The notes beneath the pieces were generated by a model. The model made no database searches, had not been told where the DNA came from, and saw nothing but the letters and a program-made list of their open reading frames with translations. From Sialis fuliginosa (taxonomy: Eukaryota > Arthropoda > Insecta > Megaloptera > Sialidae), in NCBI GenBank assembly GCA_961205875.1, contig OY540813.1:28863001-28927000 (forward strand): a DNA stretch of 64,000 nt. Reading direction: 5' to 3'. A program made the translations under genes and the position numbers. Within the stretch, counting starts at the first letter, position 1. Every line of letters begins with the position of its first letter. Shown here one piece after another: positions 5,096-64,000 of this stretch.

Positions 5096-5332
5096 GTGTG
5101 TGACATTTTGTTTAATCGACTATCACAACAGATATCTATATTACCTAACCTTTTTCTTCTTCATGGTTTTTATGTAGGTATATATATAACTTATCTACTG
5201 TTTTTTTATTTATTTATTGCTCTATCATTATTAGTTCCGAGGATATTCCCTAATATTGCTGGGAAAGACGTAGTTCTATTAAAAAAAAATCAAAACTAAA
5301 AAATCTAATTTTTTTTACAAAATTTCTTATTT

Positions 5333-12320: not shown

Positions 12321-15300
12321 AACAACACTATGCTGCTGCAGATTCCAATAGTTCCACGCCAACAAAGTCATTTGTGCCATGTAAAGTATGCGGTGATAAG
12401 GCATCAGGGTATCACTATGGGGTCACCAGTTGTGAAGGGTGCAAGGTATTTGTCGATTATTTATTGTTAATGAATTTAATATTTATTATAAATTAACTTT
12501 AAATAATATTACCAAACCACTTAAGTAAACTCATAAACCACAGATTGAGAAATACTGTAGTAAATTTTGTTATCTAACAGTGTGAATAAACCCTATAAAG
12601 TATAAACATGGATAAACTTGCAAGATGTTATGGTTGTTAAAACATGTTAATAGATGTACCTATTTCGTATTTACATTAGTTATACTTTACATTCAAAATA
12701 AAAATATTAGTGTTCTTAAAGTTTGAGAATAAATACATATTAAATAATTTGTATACGTAAATTAAATTAAACATTTTTCATATTGATTTATCTTTACTAA
12801 ATCTTTTGTTTTACAGGGTTTCTTTCGTCGAAGTATCCAAAAACAGATAGAATATAGGTGTCTTCGAGATGGAAAATGTCTGGTCATTCGATTAAACAGA
12901 AACCGATGCCAGTATTGTCGATTTAAAAAATGTCTAGCTGTTGGAATGTCTAGGGATTGTACGTATAATTTAATAATATTTATTTTTAGATCTATAATAT
13001 TTTTAAACAAAGATCTGATGCAAATATTTTCATTTGATAAGTTCAGACATTACTGACAATGATTAATTATTTATCAAATTAAACATTTTAAGTGTTTTTA
13101 TTACTGCCCCGTTTAATTCTAGTAACTCTTGCGTCCTGCTTAGACGTCATTCGATACTGTAACATTTTGTACATTACTCAGATACAGAATTAATAATGAA
13201 ACTAACTAAAATGTTGAGGAATACCTTCGTTCACCCTATATACAATAATGATACACATAGATCAGTATTTATATTTATTTTTATAAAACTATTTAGTTGA
13301 AAAAACAAAAACAATATTTAAATTAGAGAAGACAAATTGCATGACGAGAAATATTTAAATTATTCTTATCTTGTAACACAATATGTAAATTAATAAACTT
13401 CCAGTGCAAAAATCTTAAAATGGAAATCAACCTAATTTTAAAAGCGTTTTAAATGGTAACTCCGTAATATGGTTTGTAACTTTACTTATGCAATTATTTT
13501 TATTAAAAATAATATGTTTGTTATTCAATGTTAAAGAAAATATATTATACATCCATGCATTATTTAATACATTTTAATTATATTGTATAGTGAATTTATA
13601 ACATTGAACTTGTAGTATTCATGATATTTTTCAAATAGAATCAGTTCTATTCAAGCAATAAATTCAACAATTAGTTTTTCTGATTTAAGTAAGTCGTGGC
13701 AATGTAAAGTATATATAAATAATTTTATTATACACACTTGAGTATATTTTTAGTAGAATTAGTTTCTTTATATCTGTCAACCTTCTAGCTACATTTGTGT
13801 ACTATTTTTTTTTTAAGAACTTCATTAAGTTTAAAATTTAATTGAAATAATTTTTTATTTGAACATTTTTGTGAGGAATACTAGCAACTGAAAAAATATG
13901 TAAGGGAATTACGGCGCTTATGCTATAGCCAAATGCTTGAGTGGCTATTTTACAAGCATGAGTGTTAAGTGATTAAAACATTACTGGCAAATGGAAATAA
14001 AAAAGGCTGAAAGTGTTACAAATAATGTTTTGAGTAAAAACAATACATTATTCAATATATAGGTACATACTTTCAGACCTTTCCACTTGCCTTAATGTTA
14101 ATGTTCATACCTTACATACTATCTAACTAGTTAAATATTCTTACATTTATTATAGCTGTTCGATACGGACGAGTACCTAAACGTTCAAGAGAAAGAGGCA
14201 TGGACGATACAACCCGTGTGACGACCACAGACCCTGATCAGTCTGACATCGAATCCAAACAACTAGCTATGTACGACATCATTGTCATGGTATCGCAAGC
14301 CCACCAAGCAAACTGCGGCTACACAGAAGAGCACACGCGAACAATCAATGAGAAAAACTTGATCGTAATTCCTCCAGCACCAGCGGAGGAGCAAGGTGTG
14401 GCCACGTCGACAGCAGACGCTCTGGAATTCCAGAGAATCTGGCTATGGCAGCAGTTTGCAATCCGTATCACTCCGAGCGTACAGAGAGTTGTAGAATTTG
14501 CTAAACGTATTCCTGGATTTTGTGATCTGAGCCAAGACGACCAGCTTATATTAATCAAAATTGGTTTCTTTGAAGTGTGGTTGACTCATATTGCAAGATA
14601 CACGAGTGATACGGCAATGATGTTCGATGATGGAACTAAGTTTGGTAAAGAACATATGGAAATTATGTATGACGTAAGTTCTGTTTAAAAAAAAAGAATA
14701 TAAGGTCAATTGTTGTAACAACATAATCATTTGTCAATCAAATTTAATAACAAGGATTTTAACTGTCAGGTAGCATGGTGGTTTTTAAAGTACAATATTT
14801 ATTAATCAAGTACTTTGCTATCAAAATTACAATACCAAAAAAAATGGAATGACTCGTACTTAGGAAAATTGCCCTATTTATTGATATGGACAATTCTACT
14901 GTTATAATATTTTGACACAACAAATTATCTCATATTCTTTAATTTTTCTATTGTATTATTGTACAAATGTAAATGAAATGTATGTTTTTAACAGGCGGAG
15001 TTTGTAACATCATTTTTCAACTTTACGAGTTCGTTTAACTCGTACACTCTGACTGACGGAGAGGTAGGACTGTTTAGTGCTGTAGTTTTATTGACTGCCG
15101 ATCGACCAGGTGTCACAGATCCGAAAGCTGTTGAACATAATCAAGATAGAATAATAGAGGCTCTAAAAATACAGGTAATACTAATAATCTTTGAAGTGCC
15201 AACATTTCCTGTAAGATTTTTTTATAACACAATATACCGTTCTTTTTTAGATTGGAAGAAATCACGTAAATGAACCGCAGCTATTTTCAAGTTTATTAGT

Positions 15301-45207: not shown

Positions 45208-46102
45208 ATCTGCCTTGGGAACCACGGGACTTTCTTATACGTAATCCTAACAGTGAATAGTATACGTGATTCTTATTTTAGTAAAACATTTCTGACAAAC
45301 TAACAGTATAGAATAAAATGAATAGTATAGGTAATATTATTCTCTACATTATATTATTATAACAAATGGTTTTTTAACGTAATAACTGAAAACGAATGTC
45401 TACTCTTGTAAATTTTTGAATTTTCGAACTATTTTTGAAATAAGAAAAAAATGTCGAGTATGTAATAATCTATAATTTATTCCCCATACATTTTTTTCCA
45501 ATATTTATGATTTAGCCAGAAAGAATTTACAGTCATCTACACTGTTCACTCTCTGTATTACGTATAAGATAGTCCCATGGTATCTATGGCAAACACACAC
45601 ACTGTTCAATTTCTTCAATACGTATAAGAAAGTCCCATGACACTCATGGCAGATATTTCTCCTCTGTTATGAACTATTTGAATTATAATAATTTTTTTTT
45701 TAAATTCGTTCTTACGAAAAAATGAATAGAACATAAATTATAGATATTGATATTACCAACAATTTTTAACGACCATTTTTCTCTATTTCGCACTGTTTCA
45801 GAGTAATTCGAAAAATTCAAAAATCGACGTAGGTAAAAATCCGTATCCGGTTGAAAAACAGGACATTTTCTTCCCAGACAAAAATTAATCTTAAATATAA
45901 AATCTCTCCCTTCCACGATTTGTCGTATTTGAGTTACAGCGCTTACAGATAGATACATAGACATCATGGCGAAAATAGTCAGAATAGATTCAGGGAAGGT
46001 CAAAATGGATAATTCCATCAAAATCCGGAGTTCGAAAAAAATCGGCTTCACTATACTTACTTATATTATATGTATATTTCATATTCATGGTATAAGAAAG
46101 TA
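45208..46102. mobile_element. TTTCTTATACGT element, inverted copy
   Basis: Reverse complement of 23897-24801: starts CTGCCTTGGGAACCACGGGA and ends ATTCATGGTATAAGAAAGT. Internal inverted TACGTATAAGAAAGTCCCAT occurs once near 45620, and a variant (GATAGTCCC) near 45560. The 122-codon frame at 45683-46051 is not conserved in copy 1. Confidence 0.6.
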
Positions 46103-49489: not shown

Positions 49490-50672
49490 TGAATTGGTGG
49501 TGGGTTTCTTACGAAAACACTAATAACAAAAAAAAAAGATAATTTTCACAGATGAAAGATTGTTATTGATCTTATTCGATACAGTGCAGGTGGGAATAAA
49601 CCTACATAAGTGCAGGAGTTTTAGAGAAAAAATTACCCACTACCTCGTATAGAAACCGAGATATTTACGATTTTGTATAATTAATAAATAACGAAAAAAT
49701 CTCAATATTTTGCCCCGTCACAGATAAAGGGTTGTAATTTCAATCATAGTAAATTTAAAAAAATATTTAACCAACAACAAAATATATCTGTATTGTTTCA
49801 AGTATTTAAAATACTAATAAATAATGGTTTTATTTATTTACAAAAATACTTAAAATCTAATTTTGTATTACTTATATTATAAAACAAAATTATCAATTAA
49901 AATGAGTAATTAAGTTACATAAATAGAACAATATTTTAAAGAAAACAACGGGAAATTAAAACCAACCTCAGTCATTGTGAAACACCTGATAATTAAAATA
50001 AACATTGTAAAAACATAATTTGTTCATTTGTGGTGCTTTAGTATAACATGCAAAGCTCTTCAAATTATACGAGAGTAGAAAAAATCACTTATTTCAGTTT
50101 CCTGAAAAACAAATAAATTAATATTCGATTTGCTTTTTAAGTAGAAACCTAAACATATAAACAATGGGTTGTCTTAAATTTAATCGATTTATTTAAATAC
50201 ATATCTTGTTTACATTAATAATTGAAATTTCATAGAATTAATTTTTCTGAATAAAAAAATAAGCGAATTTTTTATGGACATATTATATAATATTGTTTAT
50301 AAAATAATTCGCAGACAAAAAATTATATGATGAAGTAGAAATCATGAAAAAAACATGTTCGGTAATTTGTCAATATCTTTTCCGTAGTATTATCGTAACA
50401 ATATTAATATTAATTCCATGTAATTATAAGTTGGATTATTTATAATGGAATTTTATTCCTCATTCCTCAACAAGAATGTTTGATATAAAATGCCATAATT
50501 CAAAAATACCTTTGTTTTGATTTATTTTCATATAATCAATATTCAATTAAGTTAAGTTATTTCATGTTATCGAAATATTTTCTCAAACTTAAGTTTGTAA
50601 AAGTGTCTAACGGGTCGTATTTTTTATTTTAAAAATTGAAACATCAAAATTAATATACAGCATTTATTACAG
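49490..50672 (+). other. Abl intron 1, distal part
   Basis: AT-rich, ending in the acceptor TTTATTACAG before exon 2. No other feature supported. Confidence 0.5.
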
Positions 50673-53600
50673 AGGCACTTCTTCAGAGTAGACCTTTACC
50701 CCACATACCAGATCTTCCAGACAGCGAGCCGCCGGTCACGACGTCCGCGGCGGGTGCCTCGGCGGCGGCAGCGAGTGCGAATGCCGCGGGGGGTACTGCA
50801 GGGGGCGCGGGCGCCGCCGCCCCAGGCACTCCGCTGCCGCTCGAGTCCGCCAACCGGTGGACGTCGAAGGAGAACCTTCTAGCGCAGGAGGAAGACGATC
50901 CTCAGTTGTTTGTAGCTTTATACGACTTCCAAGCTGGTGGTGAAAACCAGCTCAGTCTTAAGAAAGGTTAATTTTATTTTGTTTTAAACTCAAATGTATT
51001 GATTTTGAAAATTTTATTTCTCAAACGTCATAAATTTTTTTGTCATTTATTGGCTATAAATTTCCTTTAAATAATGTAAAATCGAAATTATATTTTTGTA
51101 ATTAAGTTCTCAACCCATCGATATGAAAAATTCGTACATATTTTTTTGGATAGATGACATTTGTTGATTATTTTTAATTTAGAAAATATAATAATAAATT
51201 AAGCTATTTAAGGTTTGTCTGATAAAATACATTTACATACAAAAAGAAATATAAATTTTACACGTTACACACTACACAAACATTATTCCTAATATATTTT
51301 GTGGCCACTTAAGATGTTTTGTCTAGTAGTTGACACTACGTTTTATATTTCTGACGATATTATTTTACCAATGTTTTCCTAAATAGTATTAGAACTAACT
51401 CATTCGCTTTCTTAATTTATCTAACAATATCAAAGTATTTAACCTACGAGCTTTATTTCATTTTACATTAAACATAAAATTGCATGATAATCGCTTCATT
51501 AATTTACATGTATTAAAAACAAATATTTATAACAAAATTCAAAATAATTAAATCCAAAATTTTGAAAAGAACTTAGGTTAACACATATTGGTCACGTTCA
51601 CGACTGACCAAAAACAGTGAACAACGAGTTTTGATTGGTTGATTCATGGAATTTATGGTGGATTGTACCAGAAATTTAAAGAATGTCATTTTTTAAGCGT
51701 GTAAGCAAGTGAGAAAGAAGTAACTAGAAAGAGATAAAAACTAGTGACCAGGCTAACCAAAGAACTTTTATGTTCACTTCATGTTGAGCGTTTCTGTCAG
51801 AACACTAGTTTCTATCTCTTTATGGTTACTTCTGTCTCACTTCCTTACACGCTTAAAAAATGATATTCTTTAAATTTCTGGTACAATCCACCACAAATTC
51901 TATGAATCAACCAATCAAAGCTCGTTGTTCACTGTTTTTGGTCAGTCGTGAACGTGACCATTGTTAATTATGTGCAAAAAGGAGCTAAGCAGCGGAATTT
52001 TACATATTGTATAACTATATTAAATATGTATATAGAATTTTTGAAATTTTCAGTACTCTTGTAGGTCTTCTTTAACTATAAATTAGCAAAGTTATTAACT
52101 AAATAAGAAACATATAGATATCAATATAAGTGTACTCTCTATTGTCCAGGCTAAGCTGGGGAAGACAGGCACGGATAATTGAAAACACAGATAATCCGAA
52201 CTATCAATTTTTATTTGCTTAAAAATACATATGTATGTACGTATAATATATTTATAATGCAGATTATCATTTTTTTATTTATTAAAAAAATCTGTGATTC
52301 TTGTTTGCAAAATCTGAACGCACTATCGCACTGTTTGTTTCATATGTCAAAACAGATGCGTATTCTCATTAAAAAATAATGAATTTAAAAAAAGTAGTAA
52401 TTTATTTTATGCATGGATAATTCGCAAACTGGATAATCCGCATCCGGATAATCGAGAGTACACTGTACTATTTAATTTCTGGTAAAAAAATATTGATTGT
52501 CAAAAAAATCTATTTCCGATCGAACAACATTTTTCTAAAAAACTTATTTTTCGGATTGCAGGGGTCTTAAAATTGAAAAAAAAATTTTATATTATAATTT
52601 AATTTAATTATGATTTATATTTATCTGTAAAAATATTGTATAATAAAAGTAATTATATACGCCCACTAAATCAATAAGTTTTTATTTTGTAATTATTTAT
52701 AACTGACGATATATATTGATTTTTGTTCCAAACAAAAATGAAAGAGTTTTTCTAATGAAAGATATATTACTACAAACATAATTTTTGTTTCTTGCAGGAG
52801 AACAAGTGCGTATTTTAAGTTATAACAAAAGCGGCGAATGGTGTGAAGCTCACGCGGCTTCCGGACAAGTCGGTTGGGTGCCTTCTAACTACGTAACTCC
52901 TGTGAACTCTCTCGAGAAGCATTCGTGGTATCACGGACCTATATCTCGCAATGCAGCAGAGTATTTACTTAGCTCCGGAATCAATGGAAGTTTTTTAGTT
53001 AGGGAATCGGAAAGCAGTCCTGGGCAGAGGAGTATTTCATTAAGGTAGTTTTTTTTAAATAAATATATTGTTTGCAAAATATCATATTTTACTCTTGAAC
53101 ACCACACTGAATCAGTGAGAAAAAAAGTTATGTATCTTCACTACAAATCCCTGACTTCAGTGAGTATGAAAAATCAAAGTCAAGTCAGTTAGGTTATACT
53201 AATCCAAAAGTGATAAAATCAGGAGGTTTATATAGTGTAATGTTCAAGGGTTAATAAAATACAATTAAAAATAAATCATTTTACCCCTTAAATTGAATAG
53301 ATATGAAGGGCGAGTATATCATTACCGAATTAATGAAGATACTGAGGGTAAAGTCTACGTAACGGCAGAGAGCAAATTCAACACGCTAGCGGAACTTGTA
53401 CATCATCATTCTATGTTATCCGATGGACTTATAACTCAGTTGCTGTATCCAGCACCTAAACATAATAAACCGACTGTGTTCCCTCTTAGCCCAGAGCCAG
53501 ACGAATGGGAAATCAATAGAACTGATATTGTTATGAGACATAAGCTCGGAGGAGGTAATTATATATTTTTATGAATTTAATCAAAGTAGATTGTATGTTT

Positions 53601-56600
53601 TTATTTATTATATTTAATATTGTTAACAGGACAATATGGTGATGTATATGAAGCTGTGTGGAAGAGATATAACATGACAGTTGCAGTGAAAACATTAAAA
53701 GAAGATACGATGGCACTGAAAGACTTTCTGGAAGAAGCTGCAATTATGAAAGAAATGAAACATCCGAATTTAGTTCAATTATTAGGTGTATGTACGAGAG
53801 AACCACCGTTTTATATTATTACAGAATTTATGAGTAAAGGTGAATATTTAATATAATTACATATGTTATTTGGAAACTAAAGTTATTAAATCCAAAAAGA
53901 GTATTAATTTAAATGGAGAAACCACAGTGAATGTTCTAAAAAATTATTTTTTTTACATTGCTACAAAAAAACATCTGCCAAGTAAATGCACAGTGCTTCC
54001 TCGTGCTAAATTCACTAAAACCGATAGTGTTCAGATAAATTGCCTGGCATTGGTTAACCATTTAATTTTTATACAAATTTTACTAAAAAATCTTAGTTCG
54101 AATTTTTTCTTAAAACGCACCTGAATATTTTTTCATATGTTTTTAATTTTTTGACAATTTCAATCTAAATCTAAATTTATGCAAATGTCAAAATGACATT
54201 TAAAACGTCAAAATTTTTTTTTTGTCTCAATCTGAAACGATCACATAGCTTCTCGTATCTTCGATATTGCGAGGAAGCAAAAAAGTGGATTTGTGTATTT
54301 ATGTTATACTTCTTTGGCATGGTGACATCTAGCATGCAAATGCAAAGCTAAAAACCTGTTTTACCGACTATCATAACAGAAATCTGTATTATCTACCTAA
54401 CTTAACTTCATGGTATTGTTTTCTTTACATGGTGCATGCACATAGTTGCATGCAACGCATTTTATTGCTGTTGCATTATTAAAGTTTCACCCTGAACTAA
54501 AGAAGTATAACTTAAAAAAAAAATTATTTTCATGGTTTTTATTTTTATTTTAGGTTATGTAATAAATGTACAAGGTTTTTAACTATTCAGTTTTGTAGGG
54601 GAATTTATTAGAAAGAAGTAGAGTTATTGTTTTTGTAATCCAATCCAATCAATTTTTTTTTTAATTTTCAAAAAGGTCCTACCAGAATGGTAGATTATAT
54701 AATATAAGATTAATAAAAAAAAATTCAAGAAAATATTCGCTAATATTACTTTGTTAATTTTAGGTAACTTATTAGATTATCTACGAAATGGTAATAAAGA
54801 TCAAATAAACGCAGTTGTGTTAATGTACATTGCAACACAAATCGCAAGTGGAATGAGTTATTTGGAGAGTCGATGTTTTATTCATCGTGATTTAGCTGCT
54901 AGAAATTGCCTTGTAGGAGAGAATCATCTTGTTAAAGTTGCCGATTTCGGTTTAGCGAGACTTATGAGAGATGACACTTACACAGCTCACGCTGGAGCCA
55001 AATTTCCAATAAAATGGACTGCGCCAGAAGGTAAAATTACATATTCTTTTAATCTACTTCAACATATAAATCATGAAATTATTTTGTAAGTTTCAAAAAC
55101 ATTGCTTCTTTTTTTAGGTTTAGCATATAACAAATTTTCAACAAAATCTGATGTCTGGGCTTTTGGAATATTGCTTTGGGAGATTGCAACATATGGTATG
55201 TCTCCGTACCCAGGCGTAGATCTGACTGACGTTTACCATATGTTGGAGAAAGGTTATCGGATGGAATGTCCGCCGGGTTGCCCACCAAAAATTTATGAAT
55301 TAATGAGACAATGTTGGCAATGGCACGCACACGAGAGACCTACGTTCAAAGAAATACACCACGCACTAGAAAACATGTTCCAGGAATCCAGTATCACTGA
55401 AGGTATACTTTTTGTTGATTTTCTTAATGGTTTTTGTCGAGTTGAAAATTTAGAATGTTATATTAATTGATTACATTTTCAGAGGTCGAAAAGCAGTTAC
55501 AAAGCAGTGATAGTGGAATAACATGTACAACGCCACAAATGTCTTATAAAAAATCACATTCCGGAAGTACAGGAAACATACACGGAATCACCGCTAGTCA
55601 AGATCATTCTGGTTAGTTAAGTTAGGTTGTTAGGATCGTTTATATATTATATTATGTATGTATTTTATTTTTCAGAATCTATATCAGGAAAATTAAGTAC
55701 TTTCACAGCATCATCGATAGGAACAGGAAAAAATAATTTAGTTCAAATGCGAAGACCTACAAATAAAAAAGGAAAAACTGCCCCAGCTCCTCCAAAACGT
55801 ACTAGGTACTTTTTTTTTTATTTATAGAAGTAAAGTAAATCACAAGTGGAAAAATAAAAATTAAATATCTTAGCATCGGTGTCTAGGCCAAAAAATTTAT
55901 TTTTATTCCTTCCTTGACTTCAGCCTTGTTGGAGGGGGGAAACGTCAGAATGTCATAATGATATTCTAAAGTACCATGAAAAAAATCCATTTTAAATTTC
56001 TTCTTCATTTTATTTCTTTATTTTAATATTTCAGTCTTCTTTCATCGTGCAGTTCCTTTAGAGACAGTACACTTGTGGTGGATGAACAAAATCAAGAAAT
56101 AGGTGCTGAAGATGGTACAGATGTCAACGGTAATTGCAATAAACATACATGTTAAAAATATTCCAACTATAACGTATTTAAGTAGTTATTTATTTAGGTA
56201 TCACTCGGGATATGCAAGCATTGACCACAAGTGCAAAAGCTGATAGTGAAAGTGATGTACAAGATCAAACGCCAGATACTGATGATTCGGGAGCACATTC
56301 ATATCCTGAAGCGACAACAAATGCATTTATAACCGGTACTTCAGCTCCTACGACGACTTCATCGTTTAAACGAGCTCCAATCATGGGTAATCGTGGTTTA
56401 GAACAGAGAGGCAAAAAGGCTAGAACATATCCTACCAAAGAAAATACAAATACACAAAAGGTTAGTTTATAGTTTTTTATAAAATCATATAAACATTAAA
56501 AAGACCAATAATTAATAGTGTTTAATTTATGTTTAGGTAATACAGGTAGCAGCTCTTGAAGTTCAAAACGTAAAACGTGCAATAAACCGATACGGGACGC

Positions 56601-58792
56601 TCCCGAAAGGGGCCCGTATTGGAGCTTACTTAGAGTCACTGCGACAGAGCGGTCTGTCTACAGACCAGGAGACCAACGCCACGACAGGTAACGCACCGGT
56701 CACATGTCCTGAGCAGCCGACAGACACGACGGTGCGCAGTCTGTCGCCCAGGACCAGTATCAGAACTCAACCGCAAATGATCAGAAGTAATTCATCAAGC
56801 GGAGTGACCACATTCCACCAACCTCCATCGTCACCTACGGCTATCAAATTACATCGCCCGAGAACGGGTATTTCTCGTAATACTGAAATCGGTAATTACA
56901 TTATCTAATCATAAAAATTATGTAACTTAAACTGAACTTCTTATTAATATTAATTGTGTTTTATGTTGTTTATAGGAACAGGTTTACGTACTTTCCGATC
57001 AGTAACTCATTCATCATTTCGAGGTGGTAGTCCTTCAAGAGCTCTACAACCTACTTTAGCTGATTTAGAGTTTCCTCCACCACCAACAGATCTTCCTCCA
57101 CCACCTGAAGAGTTTGATAACGGAGATGAAGTGGAACACATACCTACTCTATCAACATTTAGACGTGCAACTGAAAGTGACGATATTGATAACATTCAGC
57201 CATTAGTAGAACAGGCAAGTTCGCGGTTTGGAATCAGTTTAAGACGAAGAGAACCATCTACGGAATCCTGCGGAAGTGGAAAAGATAGACCAGCTAGTCC
57301 CGATTCTCCAAGAAATGATAAAAGTCCGGCTAGTGATGCGCCAGTAGTCGGTTCGCCTTTAGAGCCTTTGCCGTCACCTCCAAATCTTTCAAATGAATCA
57401 GCAGATAATGATGCACAAAACGATGAAGTTCCGAATGAGGAGGAAAAGGGTAGATTGTTTAAATCAGTATTACCGAGCATGAAAGAAATGTTAGAGTTAA
57501 AATTAGTTGCTGAAATCAAAGAAAGAGCTGATAAAAAATCATCGAAGAGTATTAAGGAAGCTTCTCCTAAAGAACCTCTATCTTCTATTATCGTTCAAGA
57601 TCCTGTTATTCAACTAGTTTCCGAGTTGTCTGAAAGCTTAGACATTAAAAAAGAACCTGATGGAAAATTAAATTTTCGTAAAACAACGCAGTCTTCGCTT
57701 CCTCCTAAACCAGATAATAGTTCATTCAAGCCTCAGTTAAAAAAAGTAGAGCCTTCTTTAAAACGGTCAACCATGACAACAAAAGAAGAGTTAAGTGGTA
57801 ATTCGATAATTGATTTCAAATCGCGTCTGAGAAAAATCGATGGTAATAGTGATAAGAAAAATGATACTGAAGAAAATACTAATAAAGATAGCGAGGTCAG
57901 AAGAAACAGCGTCGGGGCTGACGGTAATGATCAATCGTCAGACCAAACGAAACGTGAAAGCACCGCGAGCGCTCACAGTCTTGACGGAGGACTCAAAGTG
58001 GATGAAAACGATGACAAACGTAGAAGCACAGGTAGTATTAGTAGTCTTAAAAAATTATGGGAATCTAAAGAGACTTCGACAACAGAATCGGGAGGACAAG
58101 TTCAGTTAAGTCCTAAGTTAGGTATTAAAAATAAAGCAGAAACTCCAAGAACACCAGATATTCCCGAAAATACAGACAATGATATTTTAGATTCGGGCAC
58201 GAATGAAGATTCGCCTGAAGAATCATTAATGAGTAAAAGTTTGACTGGCAAAAATATTTCAGGTGAACGTAGAGTTTGGCCACCACCAGACGAAAAGCCT
58301 GCCGTTCCTGTCAAGCCTCTGGTAAAGCCGATCAAACCCGTGCTGGGTGTCGGGAATCGGCCGTCGATCTACGCCACACCCATTGCATCAAAGCCTCCGG
58401 TTTCCACAAAACCAATTTTAGACAATAAACCTATTGAAGATGAGTCGTCATTAAAATCATCTACAGATAAAACAGGAAAAGAGAACATTCTTGAAATATC
58501 ACAAGCGCTGGAATCGAGCCTGTCTTCTGTGAAAGCTAGCCAATCAGTGACAAATTCGACGTGGCTTCAGTTATCCGACAAGCTGGGCTTGCTGCACGTA
58601 TCGTGTGTTGGGTACGCTGACTCCGTTGTGCCGGCTCATGCCAAGTTCCACTTCAGGGAGCTGTTGATGAGGTTGGAAACAGAAGCTCAACAACTTAGAT
58701 CTGCCGGGAGCAGAAATGTAACGGAAAACAATCGTTTGCTAGTAGAAGTGACGAATACCATTAAAGATGTTGTGAATGCTGTTTTAAGATAG
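50673..58792 (+). CDS. Abl: Abl tyrosine kinase, coding exons 2-13
   Basis: Non-receptor tyrosine kinase linking cell-surface signals to the actin cytoskeleton. Exons: 50673-50966, 52798-53044, 53301-53554, 53630-53839, 54764-55030, 55118-55402, 55483-55611, 55676-55805, 56035-56129, 56198-56460, 56537-56891, 56976-58792 (TAG). With exon 1 they total 4476 nt, 1491 residues. SH3 about 122-178 (ALYDF, WVPSNY). SH2 about 185-275 (FLVRES 207-212). Kinase about 300-553: LGGGQYG loop, Lys329, Glu344, gatekeeper Thr373, HRDLAARN with Asp421, DFG at 439-441, activation Tyr451; all catalytic residues present. Downstream: PAPPKRT SH3-ligand motif, [20 protein letters not shown] block, FPPPP/LPPPP motifs, and an F-actin-binding domain ending with [13 protein letters not shown] at 1416. 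Exon 2 has an Ala/Gly-rich, GC-rich insert (residues 66-95). Exon borders and frame are consistent throughout. Confidence 0.97.
51589..51960. mobile_element. Palindromic MITE in Abl intron 2
   Basis: TGGTCACGTTCACGACTGAC at the left returns inverted at 51941-51960. Pairing continues nearly throughout (CAGTGAACAACGAG, GGTGGATTGTACCAGAAATT, AAGCGTGTAAG, CTAGAAAGAGATAAA). About 372 bp. No target duplication is evident. Confidence 0.8.
52129..52465. mobile_element. Pogo/Tigger-like MITE in Abl intron 2
   Basis: The right end in complement reads CAGTGTACTCTCGATTATCC, then GGATGCGGATTATCCAG. The left has AGTGTACTCTCTATTGTCC, then AGATAATCCGAAC. TA flanks both sides. CTCTCG-ATTATCCG ends are typical of pogo-type Tc1/mariner elements. 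The 66-codon frame inside is spurious. Confidence 0.7.
53962..54225 (+). repeat. Interspersed repeat in Abl intron 5 (copy 3)
   Basis: AAAACATCTGCCAAGTAAAT and GCACAGTGCTTCCTCGTGCT match copies 1 and 2 almost exactly. The far end (ATGCAAATGTCAAAATGACA) is also shared. It lies inside the intron that splits the kinase domain after the gatekeeper segment. Confidence 0.65.
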
Positions 58793-61708: not shown

Positions 61709-61714
61709 TTTATT
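61709..61714 (-). terminator. Candidate poly(A) signal of the repeat-protein gene
   Basis: AATAAA on the complement, about 70 nt downstream of the stop codon at 61783-61785. Position is suitable but unproven. Confidence 0.5.
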
Positions 61715-61782: not shown

Positions 61783-63664
61783 TTAAATTTTTGTAGTTTT
61801 ATCTTCTGGTTTTGGCTCTAGAACTGCAGGTTTGGGTTGCGAAATATTTTCTGGAAGAGGTGCAGGTTTTGTCAAGGAACTTCTATCTGGAAGTGGAGCA
61901 GGTTTTGTTAAGGAACTTCTATCTGGAAGTGGAGCAGGTTTTGTCAAGGAACTTCTATCTGGAAGTGGAGCAGGTTTTGTTAAGGAACTTCTATCTGGAA
62001 GTGGAGCAGGTTTTGTCAAGGAACTTCTATCTGGAAGTGGAGCAGGTTTTGTCAAGGAACTTCTATCTGGAAGTGGAGCAGGTTTTGTCAAAGAACTTCT
62101 ATCTGGAAGTGGAGCAGGTTTTGTCAAGGAACTTCTATCTGGAATTGGAGCAGGCTTGGTTAAGGAACTTCTATCTGGAAGTGGAGCAGGCTTGGTTAAG
62201 GAACTTCTATCTGGAAGTGGAGCAGGCTTGGTTAAGGAACGTCTATTTATTGCAGCAGGTGGTGCTTCATTATTCACATCTCGTTTTTTATATTGGTAGA
62301 CGGCAGGTTTTCCTGGTTGCAAATCAAATGTACCTGGGGCTTGCCAGGTTTCATCGGATTGGTCTTCATAACTGCTGCTTCTGGTTTCGCTTACATCTTC
62401 AGAGGAGAAATCATCAACGTCTCGTCTAGTTCTTTTCCCTGAAGAAAATGAAGGCTTGTCTTCAGAAAATACTGGCTTGTCTTGGGGTTTCACTGGTTTT
62501 TGAGGTCCTCCAAATGACGGGACATCTTCAGAGAATACTGGTTTGTCACCACCCGTAGAAAATGTCGGTGAATCTCTTCTATGTTTGGTTGCAGAAGAGA
62601 AAGATGGGCGATCGTCAGAGAAGACAGGTTTATCTTGGGGTTTCACTGGTTTTTGAGGTCCTCCAAATGATGGGACATCTTCAGAGAACACTGGTTTGTC
62701 ACCACCCGTAGAAAATGTCGGTGAATCTCTTCTATGTTTTGTCGCAGAAGAGAAAGATGGACGATCATCAGAGAAGACAGGTTTATCTTGGGGTTTTACT
62801 GGTTTTTGAGGTCCTCCAAATGACGGGACATCTTCAGAGAACACTGGTTTGTCACCACCCGTAGAAAATGTTGGTGAATCTCTTCTATGTTTTGTCGCAG
62901 AAGAGAAAGATGGACGATCATCAGAGAAGACAGGTTTATCTTGGGGTTTTAGTGGTTTTTGAGGTCCTCCAAATGACGGAACATCTTCAGAGAACACTGG
63001 CTTATCACCACCGTTAGAAAAAGTCGGTTTATCTCTTCTATGTTTGGTTGCAGAAGAGAAAGATGGGCGATCGCCAGAAAATACTGGCTTATCTTGGGGT
63101 TTTACTGGTTTCTGAGGTCCTCCAAATGACGGGACATCTTCAGAGAACACTGGCTTATCACCACCATTAGAAAAAGTCGGTTTATCTCTTCTATGTTTGG
63201 TTGCAGAAGAGAAAGATGGGCGATCATCAGAAAATACTGGCTTATCTTGAGGTTTCACTGGTTTCTGAGGTCCTCCAAATGACGGAACATCTTCAGAGAA
63301 AACTGGCTTATCACCACCATTGGAAAATGTAGGTTTGTCTGCAGAACGTTTTACAGGTGGTTTGGGTGGTACACCGCCAATTAGAATAGGTGGGCCAGAT
63401 GATCCTGAAGTTGGTGGTCTTGGAGGTACACCACCAATTAATACTGGTGGTCCTTGTTGAGAAAATGTTACATTTGGTGGAATAGGCACTGCATTGAGAA
63501 CAGCAAGTGCTGTTATCAGCAATGAAATTGTTAACTGAAAAAAAAGTTAATTTAAATTTTATCTTAATTAAAAAAAAAATACAAAATAATTTATAAGATG
63601 TACAATTATTTAAATAAAAAATATTTTGTTACAAGATATTAGAGACACTTACTTGTTTAGCCAT
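61783..63664 (-). CDS. Secreted Pro-rich repeat protein with multiple dibasic sites
   Basis: Two coding exons: 63664-63653 (Met-Ala-Lys-Gln, donor GTAAGT) and 63534-61783. They join in frame to 587 residues. The joined start MAKQLTISLLITALAVLNA is a clear signal peptide, with cleavage likely before VPIPPN. GGVPPRPP/GGVPPKPP stretches follow, then six 51-residue units (DKPTFSNGGDKPVFSEDVPS start) each closed by KHRR, or RTRR in the last. An acidic linker ends in KKR, an NRR site follows, then eleven 12-residue units (SLTKPAPLPDRS) and an acidic Pro-rich tail. No cysteines or transmembrane segments are seen after the signal. Basic sites at regular spacing suggest a cleaved precursor, as in proline-rich antimicrobial or neuropeptide precursors. 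A structural role (cuticle, silk, saliva) is equally possible. I do not recognise the family. It is convergent with Abl. Confidence 0.85.
61853..62248 (-). repeat. Tandem 36-bp repeat array (11 units)
   Basis: Encodes the 12-residue SLTKPAPLPDRS repeats. Units differ by only a few third-position or single changes (GTTAAG/GTCAAG, one Leu to Ile, GGTTTT/GGCTTG), so the array is recently homogenised. Because the unit is a multiple of three, long open frames also appear on the + strand. Confidence 0.9.
62435..63345 (-). repeat. Tandem 153-bp repeat array (6 units)
   Basis: Encodes six 51-residue units. The three C-terminal units start DSPTFSTGG and the three N-terminal ones start DKPTFSNGG, indicating block duplication of two sub-types. 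Confidence 0.9.
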
Positions 63665-63739: not shown

Positions 63740-64000
63740 TATTGATATTTTTATGTTTAAAATTTATTTAATATCAAAGCGTTGAAAAAAATACTAAGGT
63801 CATGTTTTGATTAACATGTGTGTCCTAACTATTGACTATATTTACTTATGAGATCATCATTGTACATAGTTATTAGATTTAATGGTAGAAAATACGAGTC
63901 GGGTTTTTACGTATTTTTGTTAAGATAATATTTACTAACCAGAAACACCTATTGCATATAAAGCAATTAAAATTTCTTGGAAATTAAATTATATTAAATT
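63740..64000. other. Upstream flank of the repeat-protein gene
   Basis: AT-rich DNA up to the window end. I looked for NF-kB/GATA-type clusters and saw no convincing set. Confidence 0.35.

Follow-up and report, generated by a model that had tools for sequence, protein, structure and literature searches.

The window, a 64-kb stretch of DNA analyzed here as a whole, contains a two-exon gene on its minus strand, which runs from 63664 to 61783 and by its sequence gives a 587-residue protein. On balance, this gene probably encodes a secreted, intrinsically disordered polyprotein precursor, which is cut at the sites on its module borders and is present as a single copy in the window. Cleavage of some kind is likely, and we infer from the regular layout of the basic sites that the units may be released as peptides. 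The fitting label is a dibasic-site, near-neutral repeat polyprotein, in place of the furin and apidaecin labels used in the original prediction.

Gene structure and coding evidence

The start codon ATG is located at 63664..63662 and the stop codon TAA at 61785..61783, and the previously proposed span of the gene was exact to the base. The features of the gene are listed in Table 1. The predicted intron has the donor CAA/GTAAGT and the acceptor TTTTTTTTCAG/TTA, with a polypyrimidine-CAG 3' end. There is no in-frame ATG in exon 2, because the sole Met of the spliced protein is the start in exon 1. The N-terminus resembles a signal peptide, whose end was set at residue 20 by assumption, and contains a hydrophobic stretch with Kyte-Doolittle values up to 2.77. 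The MAKQ exon, the predicted phase-0 intron, this hydrophobic stretch, and a predicted helix agree with the original prediction that an intron splits the signal peptide after residue 4.

Table 1. Positions of the features of the repeat gene in the window.
Feature	Position	Strand	Details
TATA-like element TATATATAA	63703..63711	-	-47 to -39 relative to ATG; consensus match only
Exon 1	63653..63664	-	12 nt; codes MAKQ, the predicted signal-peptide start; carries the sole Met
Intron	63535..63652	-	118 bp, phase 0, GTAAGT...TTTTTTTTCAG; predicted from sequence
Exon 2	61783..63534	-	583 residues and stop codon
N-terminal segment	63340..63486	-	residues 21-69; Pro-rich; two ~19-residue repeats; VKR/SA at end
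Six 51-residue units	62422..63339	-	residues 70-375; head to tail; ends KHRR (five) and RTRR (sixth)
Acidic segment	62281..62421	-	residues 376-422; net -9 after trimming; KKR at end
Linker	62239..62280	-	residues 423-436 (14); NRR at end
Eleven 12-residue units SLTKPAPLPDRS	61843..62238	-	residues 437-568; no dibasic sites inside
C-terminal tail SQPKPAVLEPKPEDKTTKI	61786..61842	-	residues 569-587
AATAAA polyadenylation-like signal	61709..61714	-	69 nt past stop

The upstream scans covered 336 bp, where the window ends. The chance expectation for TATAWAW in this window was 1.9 per 336 bp, against which the TATA-like element has to be read. No kappa-B site was found in the 336 bp using two consensus forms, exact or with one mismatch (chance expectation 0.03), and there was no exact match to INR (TCAGTY or TCAKTY) within the same 336 bp. 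An AAGGTCA nuclear-receptor half-site was located at 63796..63802 on the plus strand, roughly 135 bp ahead of the start codon, and this single half-site would weakly fit ecdysone control.

No convincing paralogue was detected elsewhere in the 64-kb window, in which tblastn gave one match with an E-value of 1.8, and the Rfam and tRNA scans of the whole window gave 0 matches. The window also contains exons of an Abl-type tyrosine kinase at 50654-58792 (+), in which Pfam recognized the start of SH3 (under the cut-off), SH2, the kinase domain, and the F-actin-binding C-terminus. About 3 kb separates the end of this kinase gene from the repeat gene, and the two are convergent. At 14131-15273 (+) lie exons coding for the ligand-binding domain of a nuclear hormone receptor (PF00104), the first stretch above the cut-off and the second below it, and this receptor may be E78/E75-like. 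These two neighbors show that the DNA comes from an animal, and the likeness to insect versions of both proteins makes an insect the probable source. In addition, a 60-bp unit is present in 1.9 copies with 81% matches at 45539-45651.

When the six 51-residue units were compared in all pairwise combinations, pS was 0.361 and pN was 0.049, giving a pN/pS of 0.135, and the corresponding values for the eleven 12-residue units were 0.211, 0.034, and 0.161. Third codon positions accounted for 27 of the 40 variable sites in the 51-residue array and for 8 of 11 in the 12-residue array. The differences among the copies are mostly synonymous, and this is therefore a real gene whose protein is under selection. 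Moreover, the probability of such an open frame arising by chance from the base composition was about 1e-5 when each repeat was counted once (212 codons), and stops numbered 28, 60, 24, 11, and 12 in the five remaining frames after splicing. Codon usage supported the gene frame by 51 bits versus base composition, the reference being seven stop-to-stop ORFs of neighboring genes, in which some codons are perhaps non-coding. A non-coding or satellite origin was ruled out by the synonymous bias together with the open frame.

Plus-strand ORFs lying over the 12-residue array (61797..62429, with open frames of 205-210 aa, and 61787..62299) were treated as shadows of the 36-bp period. The two stop-free readings of this array on the opposite strand gave pN/pS values of 0.27 and 3.7, compared with 0.16 in the gene frame.

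Module layout, basic sites and predicted products

Pro makes up 17.9% of the protein, Ser 13.6%, Lys 9.4%, and Asp 9.0%; Cys is absent, Met occurs once, and there are only three Tyr. The earlier description of the protein as Pro-rich and Cys-free was correct. The order of modules also agreed with the original prediction, with five 51-residue units ending in KHRR and the sixth in RTRR, then the KKR and NRR sites and the eleven 12-residue units. The sixth 51-residue unit is diverged in its last residues (SSGKRTRR). In the 12-residue array, the third unit has I for L and the last unit differs at its final three residues. Both arrays were detected by TRF, with a period of 153, 5.7 copies, and a score of 1361 for the 51-residue array, and a period of 36, 11.0 copies, and a score of 682 for the 12-residue array.

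Two further levels of repetition were absent from the original prediction. The N-terminal segment carries a third repeat type, two copies of GPP(V/I)LIGGVPP(R/K)PP of about 19 residues each (shuffle p = 0.0005), and within each 51-residue unit there are sub-repeats of the form DKPxFS (p = 0.0005 and 0.002). Comparison of the 51-residue unit with the acidic segment (p = 0.83), the 12-mer (p = 0.57), and the N-terminal segment (p = 0.37) revealed no significant similarity. In a single-sequence AlphaFold2 model, the sole helix of at least four residues was formed by residues 2-14 of the exon-2 product, which belong to the predicted signal peptide, and the mean pLDDT was 42.2, with values below 50 in 486 of 583 residues. 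The protein beyond the signal peptide is thus predicted to be intrinsically disordered; such a single-sequence model is weak evidence, yet it agrees with the composition.

Nine basic sites were identified (VKR/S, KHRR/D five times, RTRR/D, KKR/D, and NRR/S), in which the P1' residue was D in seven and S in two. All 11 pairs of neighboring K/R residues in the mature protein fall inside these nine border clusters, a coincidence that is no independent test since the basic sites themselves helped to set the module borders. The count of basic pairs was not above that of a random arrangement (p = 0.20). When the mature sequence was reduced to two 51-residue units and two 12-residue units, 18 of the 23 isolated K/R residues were followed by Pro. 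The five uncapped ones were the lysine of KHRR, an arginine in the acidic segment, the arginine of the 12-mer, and two lysines in the tail, and inside the two 51-residue units examined all isolated basic residues except the K of KHRR were Pro-capped. The excess of K/R-Pro over permutation had a p of 5e-5, which became 2e-4 with one 51-residue unit and 0.02 under the strictest de-duplication. Pro after K or R blocks trypsin-like cutting.

The KHRR motif does not differ among the five units that carry it, nor do its codons AAA CAT AGA AGA, so recent homogenization could explain this sameness. In the sixth unit KHRR was lost, while the site was kept as RTRR with other residues and codons. The furin-type label given to KHRR in the original prediction did not hold, as R-X-X-R was found at one of the nine sites (RTRR, which is the sole R-X-X-R of the protein) and KHRR has Lys at P4. 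The KHRR motif fits the dibasic PC/Kex2 type.

The same layout could belong to an uncut structural secreted protein, such as a cuticle, silk, glue, or gland protein of low complexity, in which the basic patches would serve as charge or cross-link features. This reading is rather unlikely. It would suit the 12-nt first coding exon, the phase-0 intron, the TATA-like box, the absence of Cys, the restriction of Met to the start, and the predicted disorder, and the gene layout resembles that of Anopheles CPR cuticle genes and Drosophila glue genes as described in parts of two reports (PMC2259329; PMC10835880). A weak match to the Pfam family Cuticle_3 (E = 0.8, 10.4 bits versus a cut-off of 27.1) is also in favor of this reading. 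A short first exon and a TATA-like box are not specific to cuticle genes. Against this reading, neither the R&R chitin-binding domain nor any other structural family scored above the Pfam cut-off. Furthermore, the exact INR match is missing from the 336 bp upstream, the dibasic clusters are confined to the borders, with one persisting in the diverged sixth unit, and residues for cross-linking are few (3 Tyr and 0 Cys), though Lys is plentiful.

In the favored cleaved precursor, the signal peptide would be removed first, and the nine border sites would then be cut, most likely by a Kex2/PC/furin-type proprotein convertase. In favor of this reading are the signal-peptide-like start, the Pro capping of isolated basic residues, the site kept in the diverged sixth unit, the selection on the protein, and the position of an acidic segment ahead of a basic chain. 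The N-terminal product after K/R trimming would have 45 residues, a net charge of +2, 33% Pro, and one PRP. The six near-identical repeated products would have 49-51 residues, a near-neutral net charge of -1 to +1, 16% Pro, and no PRP, with predicted average masses near 5233, 5305, and 5237 Da for units trimmed of RR. An acidic product of 44 residues (net -9) and a linker product of 12 residues (net -2) would also be released. The C-terminal chain of 151 residues, with a net charge of +11 and 25% Pro, would stay whole because its units have no dibasic site.

Near-identical copies flanked by dibasic sites are likewise expected of a neuropeptide precursor holding six copies of one peptide, an analogy drawn in the original prediction. 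We regard this as very improbable, since the unit ends carry no amidation signal; GKR occurs once in the whole protein, within GKRTRR, and there is otherwise no Gly before basic pairs. Neuropeptides are usually shorter than 49-residue disordered units, which would be long for this class. The general proposal of a multi-copy precursor was retained for its signal-peptide-like start and its near-identical copies bordered by basic sites, but not for features of the apidaecin or amidated-neuropeptide type. The points weighed against a cleaved precursor were the single R-X-X-R among nine sites, the unexceptional count of basic pairs, the near-neutral products, the absence of kappa-B in the 336 bp upstream, and the cuticle-like gene architecture.

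Searches for relatives and possible roles

No convincing relative was found in Pfam, NCBIfam, PDB, viral contigs, prokaryote genomes, or phages. These libraries do not include insect proteomes, and the absence therefore says little about novelty. In Pfam, Drf_FH1 reached 30.3 bits across a Pro-rich stretch, under its cut-off of 40, and NCBIfam gave 0 matches. The viral contigs gave 3 pattern matches and the 84,980 prokaryote genomes, where no relative was expected, gave 32, with no relative confirmed in either set. In PDB, two sequences, both KHDC3 chains, matched at E-values of 6e-12 and 2e-11 across the C-terminal array, and one phage record aligned with 22% of the query at 20.9% identity (E = 7e-4); these were judged to be probable convergence of repeat composition. 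Six peptide strings of the protein were absent from 5.39 million open papers in a text search, and the literature on RXXR repeat proteins of Lepidoptera gave no match. In the literature on furin, cuticle protein, and tandem repeats, the sole match concerned Drosophila Neto. The repeat precursor is undescribed within the literature and databases searched.

The products were then compared with known antimicrobial peptides in 32 alignments, made between four products (unit 1 being the sole 51-residue unit) and the eight peptides taken from part of a review (PMC11678341). Two alignments had p < 0.05, the C-terminal chain with lebocin 1 (0.047, the lowest p of the four comparisons with that peptide) and the acidic segment with heliocin (0.040), which is the chance level for 32 tests. 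Unit 1 matched none of the eight Pro-rich antimicrobial peptides at p < 0.05. Moreover, the repeated products have charges of -1 to +1, compared with +2 to +5 in the eight peptides, and the apidaecin-type analogy of the original prediction was abandoned on these grounds.

A classical cationic Pro-rich antimicrobial precursor of the apidaecin, lebocin, or riptocin type, in which the repeated units are active, is accordingly quite improbable. Apidaecin, riptocin, and Galleria Pro1/Pro2 have multi-copy precursors in the sections of the review drawn on here (PMC11678341), lebocins are cut at RXXR in a partial account of them (PMC5282435), and the N-terminal product, with its charge of +2, 33% Pro, and one PRP, would suit such a precursor. 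The units, in contrast, contain no PRP, which is also missing in 6 of the 8 compared peptides, and their Pro content of 16% is under that of 7 of the 8 (range 14-33%). The scarcity of RXXR and the lack of kappa-B in the 336 bp upstream also argue against it.

For the precursor cut at its borders, a tentative role is host defense, by analogy with the polypeptide-precursor style of Drosophila Baramicin A. Just behind it, the product might be a cleaved extracellular-matrix, eggshell, or gland-secretion protein; in the parts of two eggshell sources (PMC3654919; PMC13409908), a protein with such a layout was not found. It is unlikely, though conceivable, that one chain combines two opposite designs, a cuttable array with Pro-capped, protease-protected basic residues and an uncuttable basic array checked by an acidic pro-segment, which would yield neutral peptide and basic polymer at 6:1 for a joint extracellular role in defense or matrix.

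A salivary or gut polyphenol-binding protein, working like the mammalian basic salivary proline-rich proteins, is as doubtful as the cationic precursor or slightly more so. Its layout of Pro-rich repeats and cleavage sites would be comparable, the basic 151-residue chain with 25% Pro would suit such a role, and tannin-induced secreted Pro-rich repeat proteins are described for C. elegans in an excerpted report (PMC12340121). However, the units are rich in Asp, Ser, and Lys with 16% Pro, not in Gly, Gln, and Pro, and the sites differ.

If the units are released, this gene would add one more repeat-polypeptide precursor, whose near-neutral peptides would escape antimicrobial screens based on charge. 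If the protein is instead an uncut structural one, it would be an example of a dibasic layout alone misleading annotation.

Comparison with known systems

Ant hymenoptaecin and bee apidaecin resemble the present protein, as predicted, in having a signal sequence, direct repeats of the mature peptide, and RR-type processing sites, as far as the sections consulted describe them (PMC3415428; PMC11678341), and the Camponotus hymenoptaecin gene has a single intron in the former source (PMC3415428). In contrast, the EAEP spacer is absent here, and the predicted units have 49 residues versus 97, hymenoptaecin being compared by description. The repeated products are also near-neutral, unlike apidaecin. 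Lepidopteran lebocin precursors are, like the predicted protein, Pro-rich, secreted, and provided with several basic sites for processing, and BmLeb5 has four RXXR sites in the portion of that report used (PMC5282435), compared with one here.

Among structural proteins, insect CPR genes were compared for their gene architecture. According to part of one report, the signal-peptide region is interrupted in 86% of the Anopheles CPR genes with introns, the first coding exon has a median and mode of 12 nt, a TATA box and INR occur in 93%, and the proteins are scarce in Cys and Met (PMC2259329). A first coding exon of 12 nt within the predicted signal peptide, a TATA-like box, and a scarcity of Cys and Met occur in the repeat gene as well; no exact INR match lies in the 336 bp upstream, and the R&R chitin-binding domain was absent in Pfam at E <= 1. 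In five Drosophila glue genes the signal peptide is interrupted by an intron, and Pro/Ser/Thr repeats occur in several of the glue proteins, in the sections of the report available (PMC10835880). The intron in these genes is in phase 1 and the first coding exon is mostly 28 bp, with some of 19-31 (PMC10835880, in part), versus phase 0 and 12 nt here.

The mammalian basic salivary proline-rich proteins, in the part of the source cited, bind polyphenols and are cut from larger precursors of tandem Pro-rich repeats at R-S-(A/S/P)-R, in a furin-like manner (PMC3235478). The present protein is similar in its tandem Pro-rich repeats and basic sites, but its composition and sites are unlike theirs, and the likeness is one of working only. 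For Drosophila BaraA, compared by description only, the sites are RXRR and the IM10-like peptides have 23 residues, whereas here RXRR occurs at one of nine sites and the units have 51. The repeat protein, as a putative secreted precursor, would resemble BaraA in that tandem related peptides and distinct N- and C-terminal products are arranged with basic sites between them, as set out in the passages of PMC8423362 bearing on this precursor.
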